33,598 nucleotides of DNA, taken from positions 8,741-42,338 of the forward strand of contig JAHCMM010000243.1 of assembly GCA_019192515.1 (NCBI GenBank). Reading direction: 5' to 3'. Shown in pieces: positions 21,281 to 29,412 of this stretch. A model generated the notes under the pieces. That model made no database searches. It had not been told where the DNA came from and saw nothing but the letters and a program-made list of their open reading frames with translations. This DNA is from Cyclobacteriaceae bacterium SS2 (lineage in GTDB: Bacteria; Bacteroidota; Bacteroidia; Cytophagales; Cyclobacteriaceae). Made by a program: the position numbers and the translations under genes. Each line of letters starts with the position of its first letter. Position 1 is the stretch's first letter.

Positions 21281-21362
21281 ACTTAGCTGCTCGACATGTT
21301 CCGAAGGGCATGTCGTGGGATAGATAGTTGGGAATTTCCTGATTCCCTTTCCCACAACTTCC
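21281..21362. repeat. 82-bp hairpin-rich dispersed repeat, copy 1
   Basis: 79/82 matches with 22384-22465; contains CGACATG...CATGTCG and GGGAAT...ATTCCC. Confidence 0.9.
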
Positions 21363-22383: not shown

Positions 22384-22465
22384 ACTTAGCTTCTCGACAT
22401 GTTCCGAAGGGCATGTCGTGGGATAGATAGTTGGGAATCTCCTGATTCCCTTTTCCACAACTTCC
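22384..22465. repeat. 82-bp hairpin-rich dispersed repeat, copy 2
   Basis: Near-identical to 21281-21362 (3 mismatches by eye). Confidence 0.9.
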
Positions 22466-22624
22466 ACCCTAAGATCGTTGGAGTTTGCAACTTCAACGAA
22501 TAGAAAAGCAGAAAGCATAAAAATTAAAATCTATCAGGAAGGGTGGGAGCCGTTAAATAGTACCTTTCCTAAAACCACTATTTACCATATCTTTGGGATT
22601 TATTTTTACAGCTGGTTCTTAATG

Positions 22625-22659
22625 AAAACCCCTCGCATCAATAGGAAGTGAGGGGTTTT
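22625..22659. terminator. Putative intrinsic terminator
   Basis: AAAACCCCTC...GAGGGGTTTT perfect 10-bp stem followed by CTTTT. Confidence 0.7.
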
Positions 22660-22752
22660 CTTTTGATACATACCTGTTTGAATGGGGGTTTTATGTAAAT
22701 TGTTTATACATAGATAATGGTACTAATCTCATTTATATAAATCTAAATAAAG

Positions 22753-24504
22753 TTGAGCACAACTATAGACACTCCTCTTTTTCAAGAAAGGCCTAAAATC
22801 TGTTGCCTTGATTTAAATTCAGAAGATTTTAAAATTATAGTTGAGTCAGGATTTAATGTGGTTCAAGGGACACTTGGTAGCAAAATTAGGGTTCCAAATC
22901 AATCTGGTTACGACAGCCATCAATTATTATTAAACTTTGAGCTACCAGTTAATTTGCACGAATTTGATATTTTAATAATTGAATTAGCAAATCATAAAAC
23001 CCGGGACTATAAACTATCAGAACATATCAGAAAGAATCATACTGGAAATTCCTCAACCTATATAAGAAGTAGCTTTCCGGAAACCGTATTTGACCCAAGG
23101 CCAGCTGGAAGTCATTTTTTAAAAGAAAGATTGGAAAAGTTTGGTGATAAATTTCTATTGTTAATAATATTTACAGTTGGTGAATATGAAATAGAGTATG
23201 AGACAGTAGCAACCACAAAGTACAGCACGGAGTCTCAAGGATTTCGACGATATAATATATACTCACTTACTGGAGGAAGCCCACTCAAATCGGTTAAATA
23301 TGGTAAGGAAATCAAGGTAGCTGATTCCATTCGTCAAGACCTAAAAAATTTATTAGAAGAAAACATTGATTCAACTTATTATAGTCAAACTTTTTACCAT
23401 CCTTCAATATGGGAAAATGATAAGAATAAACCGGATCCAAGATATTTGCCATTATTATTAAATTCAAGTAATGAGATTGTTTCAATTTATGAGAAAAGAA
23501 ATAATTCAGCAGTTTTTTATTTTCCTCAAATCAAATTTAAGGGGGAGTTTCTCAAATCATTTTTAAATAAAATAGGTCCAGGTATTTATCCAAATCTTTT
23601 CCCTTTTTCTACATCTTTTGTTTGGAAGAATAGTAGCCCATTTTGGCTACCTAATTATGAACGTTTAGAGAGTAAGAGACGAATTATCGAGAAAGAGTTT
23701 GATATAAAACTTAAAGCTATTGATCATGAAATTGAATCTAACCATAATCATTTCTCTTACCTACACGAAATTTTAACTGAAACAGGAGATAGCTTAGTTG
23801 AGTCATTGATCAAATTTTTAAAATGGCTTGGTTTTTCAAATGTTGTAAAGCATGATGAAAAGGACGGTGGAAAGTTGCTTGAAGAAGATATTCAAATTGG
23901 CATGGATAATGGAATTTTAATAATTGAATGTAAAGGAATAGGAGGAACCTCCACAGACTCTGATTGTAGCCAAATTTCAAAAATAAAGCACAGAAGATGT
24001 AGAGAGAGAGGAAGCTTTGATGTGTTTGCTCTATATATCGTAAATCATCAACGATATTTATCACCCCTTCAAAGAAAAAACCCACCTTTCACTTTAAACC
24101 AAATTCAGGATGCTGAGAATGATGAACGTGGTCTCTTAACTACTTGGCAACTCTTTAATGTGTTCAGGGAGATCGAAGATGGGATACTTTCAAAAGAGGA
24201 GGTCCGTGAATCTTTTTTGTCATTTGGCCATGTGAAGTTTAGACCTTCAAATCTTGTATTAATCGGTGAACCTAAGGAATTATTCAAAAAGGGTGTTGTA
24301 TGCATTTTAATTTTAACAAATAAAGAAATCAGTATTGGAGATGAAGTCTTTATTGAAAGAGATGGGACATTTAGATGTCTAAAAATTGAAGGGATTCAAA
24401 TAAATGACCAGCCAGTTCCTTCTGCCAAGAATGGGGAGGTAGGAATAATGTTGAGTGATTCTGTTAAAAAGAATTGTAAGATTTGGAAAAAATTGAAAAG
24501 GTAA
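22753..24504 (+). CDS. Putative multidomain PD-(D/E)XK nuclease: N-terminal sensor-like domain, central nuclease, C-terminal EF-Tu-domain-2-like barrel
   Basis: LGFSNVVKHDEKDGGKLLEEDIQIGMDNGILIIECKG (D...ECK signature); C-terminus KEISIGDEVFIERDGTFRCLKIEGIQINDQPVPSAKNGEVGIML resembles translation-factor domain 2; TTG start. Confidence 0.75.
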   Translation: MSTTIDTPLFQERPKICCLDLNSEDFKIIVESGFNVVQGTLGSKIRVPNQSGYDSHQLLLNFELPVNLHEFDILIIELANHKTRDYKLSEHIRKNHTGNSSTYIRSSFPETVFDPRPAGSHFLKERLEKFGDKFLLLIIFTVGEYEIEYETVATTKYSTESQGFRRYNIYSLTGGSPLKSVKYGKEIKVADSIRQDLKNLLEENIDSTYYSQTFYHPSIWENDKNKPDPRYLPLLLNSSNEIVSIYEKRNNSAVFYFPQIKFKGEFLKSFLNKIGPGIYPNLFPFSTSFVWKNSSPFWLPNYERLESKRRIIEKEFDIKLKAIDHEIESNHNHFSYLHEILTETGDSLVESLIKFLKWLGFSNVVKHDEKDGGKLLEEDIQIGMDNGILIIECKGIGGTSTDSDCSQISKIKHRRCRERGSFDVFALYIVNHQRYLSPLQRKNPPFTLNQIQDAENDERGLLTTWQLFNVFREIEDGILSKEEVRESFLSFGHVKFRPSNLVLIGEPKELFKKGVVCILILTNKEISIGDEVFIERDGTFRCLKIEGIQINDQPVPSAKNGEVGIMLSDSVKKNCKIWKKLKR

Positions 24505-24526
24505 CTGAAAAGATTATTACTATGTA

Positions 24527-25486
24527 ATGAATATTGTCAAGGATATATGGAATTGGATACTTAGAAATGTGTCAAACCTAATAGGTTTCTTAGGATTAAT
24601 TGCAACTATATATTTTGGAGCATTTTATATACCTGATTATTTAGAAGAAATAAAATCAGAGAAAATCAGGACAATAAATAAAGAACTAGTTAGAACCACC
24701 AAGGAATTAATCTTTAATGATACAACATTTGAAGCTGTTGATATTAAAGTTTTAATTGATTCAAAAAAAATTACATATGGGATTGAATATCCATTTAATG
24801 CAATTCAATTGCTTTTTTTTGTACAGGAATCTTTCATGGAAGACAGTTATTTACCTCTCTCTAGAAGGAAAGAGCTCTTTGATAAAATTGAGCTTCTTAA
24901 ATCAAATCTGAAAGTGAATGATAACAGGCCCCCAAAATCATCTTTTTTAGGTACACTTGATCTTCTTTCCATATTGTCTGCATCACTATCCGTAATTATT
25001 GCAATTATTGCTTTTATAAGCTTATATCGAAAAAGACAACTTGAGAAGGCAAAGGAGGAAGAATTGACCACACTTGAGGAACAAGCTATAAATGAGTCTT
25101 CCTCATTTGATAGACATAGAAAGTTTGAATCAAATCTAACTGAGACTTTAAGTAGTATAGAAGGTGTAAAAGTTTTAAGTAAAATTCAAAGAACAGGAAT
25201 TGATATTTGCTTCACCTTTCGCGATAGGACTTTCTATGTTGAAGTAAAGAATTTAAATCGATCTAAAGTAGCTCAAAGTTCTGTTGCAAATTTCCTTTTG
25301 TTAATGAATGAATATGAAGGTATTGGCCTTTTCGTATATAACACAGAGCTTACTCAAATGGCTAAAAAAAGAATTAATGAATTTAATAAGTTTTCGACCT
25401 CTATGGTTTATCCGATTAGAGTACAAAATCCAAAAGACAAAAGAAGAATTTTAAATCTACTAGAAACTATTTCTTCTTCCACATAG
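24527..25486 (+). CDS. Membrane-anchored putative PD-(D/E)XK nuclease (two TM helices, extracytoplasmic domain, cytosolic nuclease)
   Basis: TM1 NLIGFLGLIATIYFGAFYI; TM2 LLSILSASLSVIIAIIAFISLY; C-terminal RTGIDICFTFRDRTFYVEVKN (D...EVK signature). Confidence 0.75.
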   Translation: MNIVKDIWNWILRNVSNLIGFLGLIATIYFGAFYIPDYLEEIKSEKIRTINKELVRTTKELIFNDTTFEAVDIKVLIDSKKITYGIEYPFNAIQLLFFVQESFMEDSYLPLSRRKELFDKIELLKSNLKVNDNRPPKSSFLGTLDLLSILSASLSVIIAIIAFISLYRKRQLEKAKEEELTTLEEQAINESSSFDRHRKFESNLTETLSSIEGVKVLSKIQRTGIDICFTFRDRTFYVEVKNLNRSKVAQSSVANFLLLMNEYEGIGLFVYNTELTQMAKKRINEFNKFSTSMVYPIRVQNPKDKRRILNLLETISSST

Positions 25487-25724
25487 GGACTTAGAACTTC
25501 ATTCATGATAGTCTAACATTAAATTTTTTAATTGATAATGTCCAATCTTGGCCATCTCACCCTTGCCATCCCCTAGCTAGCCACAAGTATTAGCCAGTGT
25601 GGGTTGGATGGTGTGTGACTTATGCCCGTCAAACTTAACTCCCCCCCTTTCTCATCTCGAGAATCCCCTCCTAAAAAACTTCTTCACCAGTTCGCTTAAA
25701 AACACCCTGCCGGAGATACTTTCA

Positions 25725-25834
25725 AAACCTGCGCAGACTTCGATCAAAGTCTGCGCAGGTTTTGCTCAAAGTCTGCACGGGTTTTAACGAAAGTCTGCGC
25801 AGACTTTCACTGATGTCTGCGCAGACTTTTTTTG
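25725..25834. repeat. Five-unit tandem array, 22-bp period, palindromic core CTGCGCAG
   Basis: Units at 25725, 25747, 25769, 25791, 25813; consensus AAGTCTGCGCAGACTTTnnnnn; perfect 17-bp inverted arms 25724-25740/25747-25763; perfect 20-bp palindrome 25789-25808; ends in T-run. Confidence 0.92.
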
Positions 25835-26314
25835 TATCCTCTTTTAGTCAGTATAATGACTAGCCTGAGGTCTATTCAGAACCACACAAAACTGTCTCGA
25901 TTTGGGAATTTTTATTCAAAATGAGAAAGGTGAAAGGGAAGGTTTAAGCCATTTTTCTCTAAGCTCTCTAACCTTATCATTAAACGATTACATAGCACGG
26001 TAGGATGCGTTATCAGATACTTTTTTCAGTAAATGGCAGATAAATTAATTATTTTGTCTCATAGACCGTTTTGGCACCCTTTGTGGAATAATTATTGCAC
26101 GCTTTTTATTGTCTGTAGACTTGTCGAAAAAGCGCATTCGACCGCTTAACAAGCTAAAGCCCAGCAAACGTCTCACTGTCCCCAGCAAGACCAAGCAAAG
26201 CAGAAATTTAGAGAAACCATTATTGGTGGATAAGCTCCGGTAGGCATTACCACGCTTTCGTCCCAGTCCCAATAGGTGCAATCTGACGCCAGCCGCGTGA
26301 TAGCAAGTGAAGCC

Positions 26315-26336
26315 TGCCTGCCTATGTTGGCAGGCA
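26315..26336. repeat. Hairpin TGCCTGCC/GGCAGGCA upstream of HU-like gene
   Basis: Perfect 8-bp arms, 6-nt loop. Confidence 0.75.
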
Positions 26337-26372
26337 CTTAAATCAATTGTTTAATTTTTAAATTTTAAAGTT

Positions 26373-26792
26373 ATGTCAATACTGTTTAAAGCTGTACCCA
26401 AAGGTCAACCGGGAGTGGTTGGCGGAGGTACTATTAAGTATTATGCAGGAATCATTCGAGAGCAACCCGTCAAGTTACGGAAGTTTGCTTCAGAGATTGC
26501 GAAAATGAGTTCATTGACTACTTCCGATGTATTTGCTGTGTTGGAGTCATTCTTAGAACGCTTGCATACCTATATGGAAGAAGGTCGCATCATTCAATTA
26601 GGTGATTTGGGTAGTTTCTCACCTTACCTCGCAAGTAAGGCAGAGGATTCACCCAGAGAGGTGGATCTGCACTCGATCACCAAAATGAGGGTTGGCTTTC
26701 GTCCAAGCAAGGAGCTTAGAAAGCGATTATCGGTGGTGGAATTCCTTAAACAAGGAACGGATACCGATGGAACTGAATCCATAGCCCCTTGA
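26373..26792 (+). CDS. HU-like DNA-binding protein
   Basis: KLRKFASEIAKMSSLTTSDVFAVLESFLERLHTYMEEGRIIQLGDLGSFSP: HU/IHF-type fold typical of Bacteroidota HU-related proteins. Confidence 0.85.
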   Translation: MSILFKAVPKGQPGVVGGGTIKYYAGIIREQPVKLRKFASEIAKMSSLTTSDVFAVLESFLERLHTYMEEGRIIQLGDLGSFSPYLASKAEDSPREVDLHSITKMRVGFRPSKELRKRLSVVEFLKQGTDTDGTESIAP

Positions 26793-26818
26793 TAGTATCA
26801 ATGTTGTCATTGTTTACT

Positions 26819-26888
26819 GAGGCCCGACCTGGCTAAGCGTACCTCCGATTTGATCGGAACCGCTAAACCAGGAAGGGTCTCTTTTTTT
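26819..26888 (+). terminator. Intrinsic terminator after HU-like gene
   Basis: CCTGGCTAAGCG...CCGATttgATCGG...CGCTAAACCAGG stem then TCTCTTTTTTTA. Confidence 0.8.
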
Positions 26889-27364: not shown

Positions 27365-27553
27365 ATGGAATCTAAATTAAAAGAACATCTCGTTCAGATT
27401 GCAGATCGAATAACTCCTGAGTCAACTTTAGAAGATGTTTATGAACAGCTTTCATTGCTGGCTGATATTGAAGAGTCTGAGGAACAAGAAATGAATGGAG
27501 AAACTTTAACCCAAAAAGAAGTAGAAGAAAAATCTAAAGGGTGGTTAAAGTAA
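27365..27553 (+). CDS. Antitoxin-like protein of a ParE/RelE-type TA pair
   Basis: 62 aa acidic ORF overlapping the downstream toxin; same layout as 27029-27202. Confidence 0.7.
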   Translation: MESKLKEHLVQIADRITPESTLEDVYEQLSLLADIEESEEQEMNGETLTQKEVEEKSKGWLK

Positions 27554-27846
27554 TCTGGACCAAAAAGGCATTCAGTCAGTTAGAGCGGGCAGTTAAATAC
27601 ATTAGAGATGAACAAGGCTTATCATATGCTGAGATTGTCCTTTCAAAAATCCTGACTTCAACTCAGTTACTTGAGAAATCTCCAAAAATGGGGACAATTG
27701 AACCTTTATTAGAACATAAAAAATCTGAATACCGATTTCTTATAGTATGGAGCTATAAAATAATCTACAGAACCACCGAAAATAAAGCAGTTATTTCCCG
27801 GGTTTTTCATACTTCACGAAATCCTAAAAAGCTTAAAGGAATTTAG
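27541..27846 (+). CDS. RelE/ParE-family toxin
   Basis: GTG start; VIWTKKAFSQLERAVKYI, SPKMGTIEPLLEHKKSEYRFLIVWSYKIIYRTTENKAVISRVFHTSRNP. Confidence 0.88.
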   Translation: MVKVIWTKKAFSQLERAVKYIRDEQGLSYAEIVLSKILTSTQLLEKSPKMGTIEPLLEHKKSEYRFLIVWSYKIIYRTTENKAVISRVFHTSRNPKKLKGI

Positions 27847-28849: not shown

Positions 28850-29038
28850 ATGAGCAGAGAAGAAGTAAAAACAGCGATCAACCGACTTTTGGACAATTCA
28901 TCTGAAGAGGTTCTTCAGGAGGTTTTTGATTACTTGAAGTCAGTTGAAGGAAAACCCAATGAGGCTGTAAAGATTTCGCAAAATCTCAGAACCATCTTAA
29001 AGGAGGATCAAGAACTTCTTGAAAGGTTGGCTCAATGA
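28850..29038 (+). CDS. Antitoxin-like small protein preceding Doc
   Basis: 62 aa, overlaps the 29035 start; MSREEVKTAINRLLDNSSEEVLQEVFDYLKSVE. Confidence 0.75.
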   Translation: MSREEVKTAINRLLDNSSEEVLQEVFDYLKSVEGKPNEAVKISQNLRTILKEDQELLERLAQ

Positions 29039-29412
29039 TTTCAAGAAATGAGGTTATTGAGATCCATTCTATTCTAATAGAACGCTTTGGTGGATCGAAT
29101 GGGATTCGTGATAATGACCTTTTGGACTCAGCCTTGAACAGGCCCTATCAAATGTTTGACGGGAAAGAACTTTATCCAACACCAATAGCAAAAGCTGCTG
29201 CTATTATTGAAAGCATAGTAAAAAATCATCCATTCATTGACGGGAACAAAAGGACTGGTTATGTACTTGCGAGACTTATTTTGATGAATGAGAATATTGA
29301 TATCCTGGCAAACCAGGAGCAGAAATATCAATTTGTAATTTCAATTTCAACCGGTGACCTCACTTTTGAAGAAATAAAAGATTGGCTCGAAAAGAACCAT
29401 CGTCAAACGTGA
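29035..29412 (+). CDS. doc: Fic/Doc-family toxin
   Basis: HPFIDGNKRTGYVLARLIL Fic motif; GIRDNDLLDSALNRP. Confidence 0.92.
   Translation: MISRNEVIEIHSILIERFGGSNGIRDNDLLDSALNRPYQMFDGKELYPTPIAKAAAIIESIVKNHPFIDGNKRTGYVLARLILMNENIDILANQEQKYQFVISISTGDLTFEEIKDWLEKNHRQT

Follow-up and report, generated by a model that had tools for sequence, protein, structure and literature searches.

The open reading frame ORF1, located in the 33,598-nucleotide stretch of DNA that was analysed as a whole (the window), was identified as a candidate member of a mobile family without a name, whose proteins would act as anti-phage nucleases from a single gene, and judging from comparative evidence this assignment is probably correct. 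In the best explanation, a glutamine-amidotransferase-like N-terminal domain would sense a phage product or a ligand made during infection, a PD-(D/E)XK core (D379, E392 and K394) would then cut nucleic acid, and a C-terminal barrel resembling those of TrhP and of EF-Tu domain 2 would dock the protein either on the substrate or on some target in the cell, the outcome being an aborted infection or destruction of the invader. The family, of about 580 amino acids, is found in several phage types as well as in bacteria, and its sensor-nuclease-barrel architecture, for which the four curated libraries tested gave no counterpart, appears to be new. As a compact single gene with catalytic residues that can be named, ORF1 is a target for the plaque assay. 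It also raises the question whether a barrel from proteins of tRNA modification and translation steers defence nucleases to RNA.

Organization of the exchangeable locus

ORF1 (positions 22753 to 24504, plus strand) starts with TTG and encodes a three-domain PD-(D/E)XK protein of 583 amino acids from an uncharacterised family, and ORF2 (24527 to 25486, plus strand) starts with ATG and encodes 319 amino acids with two transmembrane segments and a C-terminal Mrr_cat domain. The two genes are aligned on the same strand with a gap of 22 bp, and their GC contents of 0.326 (ORF1) and 0.297 (ORF2), against 0.457 in the flanks, agree with the original prediction of two adjacent AT-rich genes. The low-GC stretch covers about 22.6 to 25.5 kb of the window. 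An in-frame stop is located a few codons upstream from the TTG, and the first in-frame ATG does not appear before residue 386; the exact start is slightly uncertain, although the alignment of relatives begins at about residue 10. Just upstream of ORF1, a terminator-like inverted repeat is followed by T-rich sequence (22621 to 22663, plus strand).

The surrounding zone is rich in repeats, as had been predicted. Five tandem 22-nt units with the palindrome core CTGCGCAG are located just downstream of ORF2 (25702 to 25829), and this array is partially conserved in the sister species. An 82-nt repeat is present upstream of the cassette in two copies of 96% identity (21281 to 21362 and 22384 to 22465), the second of which ends about 220 bp short of the left edge of the cassette. 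A search of the window for RNA elements and tRNAs detected none. By eye, ParE/RelE-like and Doc/Fic-like toxin genes were recognised at 27541 to 27846 and 29035 to 29412.

Comparison with the sister species (G001) defined the edges of an exchangeable segment (22687 to 25647): homology ends at 22686 and comes back at 25648, while the flanks show about 95% identity across much of their extent. Between the same flanks, G001 carries PDC-M49A (E 8e-290) and PDC-M49B (E 3e-39), both listed in PADLOC as phage-defence candidates, together with further genes, indicating that the locus is an exchange slot. The stretch from an esterase-like gene to the gene for a 274-aa membrane protein also differs in content between G001 (L145, G001:C11:121000-138000) and the window, indicating, besides the PDC-M49 swap, that this zone is plastic. 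The HU-HIG region (window positions about 25894 to 26870) is multicopy in G001.

The exchange of the cassette implies that ORF1 and ORF2 share one slot, and this fits a functional pair as well as two independent effectors. ORF2 contains GIDICFTFRDRTFYVEVKN and carries hydrophobic segments at residues of about 15-36 and 139-168, separated by a loop of about 100 residues; its residues 199-287 narrowly passed the Pfam threshold for Mrr_cat (PF04471; 21.7 versus a cut-off of 21 bits, E 2.3e-4), in agreement with the prediction of a two-TM protein with a nuclease-type domain. The short gap, the common strand, the shared low GC and the joint replacement as one segment between the sister species would all suit a single two-component defence system, in which ORF2 serves as a membrane-tethered partner or effector. 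This arrangement is nevertheless quite improbable, because a relative of ORF2 adjoins none of the 84 other ORF1 loci, where the ORF1 relatives stand solo or with varying neighbours, and because relatives of ORF2 are near-absent; one, at L011, shares 21% identity mainly in the TM half and belongs to a genome (G004) without ORF1. The two-gene module of the original prediction was thus not borne out as a conserved unit, and ORF2 may be a second, independent membrane-tethered effector of the Mrr type within the cassette of ORF1. A 75-residue match to ORF2 at L095 looks spurious.

Predicted architecture of ORF1

The AlphaFold model of ORF1, predicted from the alignment, showed a pLDDT of 91 and a full-length pTM of 0.55, indicating that the single domains are reliable while their packing is uncertain. 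By prediction, the order is a glutamine-amidotransferase-like N-terminal domain, a long helix, a restriction-endonuclease (REase)-like core and a C-terminal barrel. The N-terminal domain (22774 to 23652, plus strand; residues of about 8-300) was assigned from the model and Foldseek to a class-I glutamine-amidotransferase-like fold; modelled in isolation, it gave a pLDDT of 92.7 and a pTM of 0.81. Its Foldseek matches in the PDB were class-I glutamine amidotransferases (E 4e-4 and above, target-normalised TM about 0.4-0.5), including lin1909, GMP synthetase and aminodeoxychorismate synthase. Within the family, E70, Y149, G184, P258 and W291 of this domain are invariant and an NLHE motif is near-invariant, whereas a conserved Cys, the expected nucleophile of class-I amidotransferases, is missing: no Cys of the domain is invariant or near-invariant. 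The long helix (23656 to 23778, plus strand; residues 302-342) probably forms a coiled coil in the model.

The REase-like core (23782 to 24222, plus strand; residues 344-490), delimited by the model and by conservation, includes EEDIQIGMDNGILIIECKG as residues 377-395. D379, E392 and K394, together with Q407 and K410, are kept in 68/68 full-length family sequences, and E378 is among the 25 invariant columns of the 68-sequence alignment, whose members share 27-54% identity with ORF1. Foldseek against BFVD returned restriction-endonuclease and Mrr matches (E 3e-4 to 8e-3). Both the D...ExK signature and the REase-like fold place ORF1 in the PD-(D/E)XK superfamily as a putative nuclease, and the nuclease-like signature noticed in the original prediction is confirmed at the level of structure prediction. 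A search by sequence among solved structures gave no credible relative of ORF1; the myosin light-chain matches were due to chance and disappeared with a larger alignment.

The C-terminal barrel (24226 to 24501, plus strand; residues 492-583) was first noticed as a translation-factor-like stretch, and this stretch is indeed present. The top Foldseek matches of ORF1 in the PDB were mostly EF-Tu, IF2 and eIF5B; the output gives no residue ranges, and these matches are assigned to the barrel on the basis of two other results. The profile of the ORF1 family matched U32 (TrhP-type, Pfam Peptidase_U32) proteins at profile positions of about 497-578 in more than 20 genomes, and hhalign with the barrel alone gave 97.3% for the C-termini of U32/TrhP proteins (E 1.9e-11) and 88.3% for the domain 2 of translation GTPases, while pieces of the N-terminal domain, used as controls, did not exceed 0.6%. 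These profile comparisons relate the barrel by homology to that of the U32 (TrhP-type) tRNA-hydroxylation proteins and, more remotely, to EF-Tu domain 2. The same barrel was also detected at the end of a HEPN_MAE_28990 protein (PF18737, E 1.5e-11) in a genome belonging to the same order as that of the window (L099:715-1755), and ORF1-type barrels are possibly portable among conflict effectors. The search for HEPN-barrel relatives detected none in viral contigs and one partial match, mainly to the HEPN part, in plasmids.

DNA is the default substrate of the PD-(D/E)XK fold, and by analogy RNA should be regarded as a serious alternative for ORF1, because its barrel is kin to the tRNA-modifying TrhP family and is reused on a HEPN protein. 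As a sub-case of the best explanation, ORF1 would then be an RNA-targeting abortive-infection nuclease that backs up restriction-modification (R-M) systems in the manner of PrrC, its core being led by the barrel to tRNA or to the translation machinery. The closest barrel relatives are U32 C-termini and TrhP acts on tRNA (PMC6599085), most toxin domains of the HEPN type are RNases (PMC3710099), and copies of the family are found inside the R-M operons at L020 and L022. However, most PD-(D/E)XK nucleases cleave DNA, a barrel of such a widespread fold may also have protein or DNA as its ligand, the likeness to EF-Tu domain 2 is remote, and two relatives, L098 and L009 (Fusobacterium vincentii), of 406-444 amino acids, have the nuclease core and are devoid of the barrel. 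We consider an RNA target less likely than not. The more specific proposal of a novel abortive-infection class, in which a non-catalytic amidotransferase-like domain senses the trigger, the barrel aims a PD-(D/E)XK nuclease at tRNA or the translation machinery, and the same barrel is a portable module also used by HEPN effectors, is rather unlikely. The likelihoods given for RNA and DNA targets are divisions within the defence reading and overlap with that of the best explanation. The translation-linked surveillance proposed in the original prediction is suggestive only: the barrel alone is behind this idea, and the N-terminal domain is amidotransferase-like, not a known translation sensor.

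Distribution and genomic settings of the ORF1 family

Besides the window, about 84 loci from at least 12 phyla encode relatives of ORF1. Tblastn and pattern scans located such relatives in a phage record, 61 genome loci, 16 viral contigs and plasmids of Synechocystis, Klebsiella, Serratia and Pantoea. In the viral scan, the single-sequence query gave no match and the alignment query gave all 16. Full-length relatives share 27-55% identity with ORF1, and dN/dS ranged from 0.08 to 0.32 across 11 close pairs, showing purifying selection in sequence comparison. The spread is patchy: an ORF1 match was found in 1/59 genomes of the near-relatives set, namely the genome of the window itself, and full-length copies in 2/395 genomes of Bacteroidia. 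A blastn search of complete E. coli genomes with two viral-contig copies found no relative, although more distant copies are possible.

No family in Pfam, PADLOC, NCBIfam or PHROG matched ORF1, and neither ORF1 nor ORF2 matched the PADLOC 2023 defence profiles, even at E 10. Matches of the relatives to the profile libraries were weak and scattered, those to PADLOC being three, each in a single member. Family proteins were labelled 'hypothetical protein' wherever annotation was seen, and a literature search by protein accession gave no result. In the family tree the phylum labels are clustered, with 12 changes against the least possible 11, so that rampant transfer between phyla is borne out only in part; the supported clade including the window is a mix of Bacteroidota, Planctomycetota and Thermodesulfobacteriota. 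Frameshifts or internal breaks split the copies at L040, L072, L075 and L077, a state that fits cargo under turnover.

Several genomic settings of the relatives are cargo sites of the defence type. At L077, L078, L084 and L088, the relative is located between the genes for portal gpQ and replication protein gpA of P2-like phages, an interval known from Rousset et al. as an anti-phage hotspot (PMC9122126). A repressor of the S24/cI type adjoins the relative in 7 loci, in three P1-like phage-plasmids it occupies a common site adjoining ddrB, and at L006 it lies just downstream of pifA. At L020 and L022 it lies between the genes for an NgoPII-type restriction enzyme (PF09521) and a C5 methylase, where the junctions overlap or measure 4 bp; at L063 and L064 it is followed by a C5 methylase gene and a gene that is Vsr-like by eye. 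The gpQ-gpA, cI-adjacent, R-M and pifA positions, taken together with the PDC-M49 swap, identify these loci as defence-type cargo sites, and the defence role raised in the original prediction is strongly suggested by this context. A tyrosine integrase was found within 8 genes in about 10/60 genome loci, to be read against a rough comparison: genomes of the window's relatives, at a size of about 5 Mb, contain some 8 integrase matches each. The PADLOC scan of neighbours says nothing beyond methylases, since redundant methylase models fill its list.

The R-M settings and the REase-like core also raise the possibility that ORF1 cuts foreign DNA, either as the restriction endonuclease within an R-M system or as a type IV (modification-dependent) enzyme, with the barrel or the N-terminal domain reading marks on the DNA; the modification-dependent form would itself be a sub-case of anti-phage defence. 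The adjoining NgoPII-type or C5 methylases at the four loci above are in line with this possibility, yet L020 and L022 already have a dedicated restriction enzyme, and the C5 methylase family PF00145 was matched by only 3/134 immediate neighbours, which does not support a type II enzyme with a constant cognate methylase. To our knowledge, neither amidotransferase-like nor TrhP-like domains are readers of modified bases, which counts against a type IV enzyme. A restriction or type IV function is possible but less likely than not.

Many chromosomal loci have adjoining genes without a recognisable defence gene, and some relatives adjoin replication genes and a toxin-antitoxin pair. Such positions on plasmids and prophages would be expected of a maintenance gene or another accessory function outside defence; prophage cargo can serve other functions, and PDC-M49 is a mere candidate itself. 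A function of this kind is improbable, given that the family occupies several unrelated element types and R-M operons, that the copies in P2-like phages are at the site of the old/tin exclusion genes, and that a PADLOC candidate takes the slot in the sister genome. The anti-phage nuclease is thus retained as the best explanation.

Comparison with known systems

Shedu (SduA, DUF4263) is an anti-phage system of a single gene, whose product combines a sensing region at the N-terminus with a PD-(D/E)XK nuclease. ORF1 resembles it in this single-gene plan, and differs in the amidotransferase-like N-terminal domain and the additional C-terminal barrel. Identification of ORF1 as Shedu was rejected, as no DUF4263/SduA match was obtained in Pfam or PADLOC and none is listed for the relatives. 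Among Mrr-type nucleases (PF04471), it is ORF2 that reached the family cut-off, with two TM segments added, whereas ORF1 showed no match to this family.

The barrel connects ORF1 with three other groups. In U32 peptidase/TrhP (YegQ) proteins the barrel is homologous, but ORF1 has the nuclease core in place of the U32 catalytic domain. With EF-Tu, IF2 and LepA, ORF1 shares the barrel fold and a weak profile similarity to domain 2 (PF03144, below the Pfam cut-off); unlike these translation GTPases, it matches no GTPase family and its N-terminal domain is amidotransferase-like. The HEPN_MAE_28990-type protein likewise joins the barrel to an effector domain of conflict systems, in this case HEPN instead of PD-(D/E)XK, and no amidotransferase-like domain was seen in it. 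Finally, the ORF1 relatives at L020 and L022, as putative nucleases, are comparable to PrrC, the anticodon nuclease of EcoprrI, in their accessory position within an R-M operon, even though PrrC is composed of an ABC-ATPase plus HEPN.
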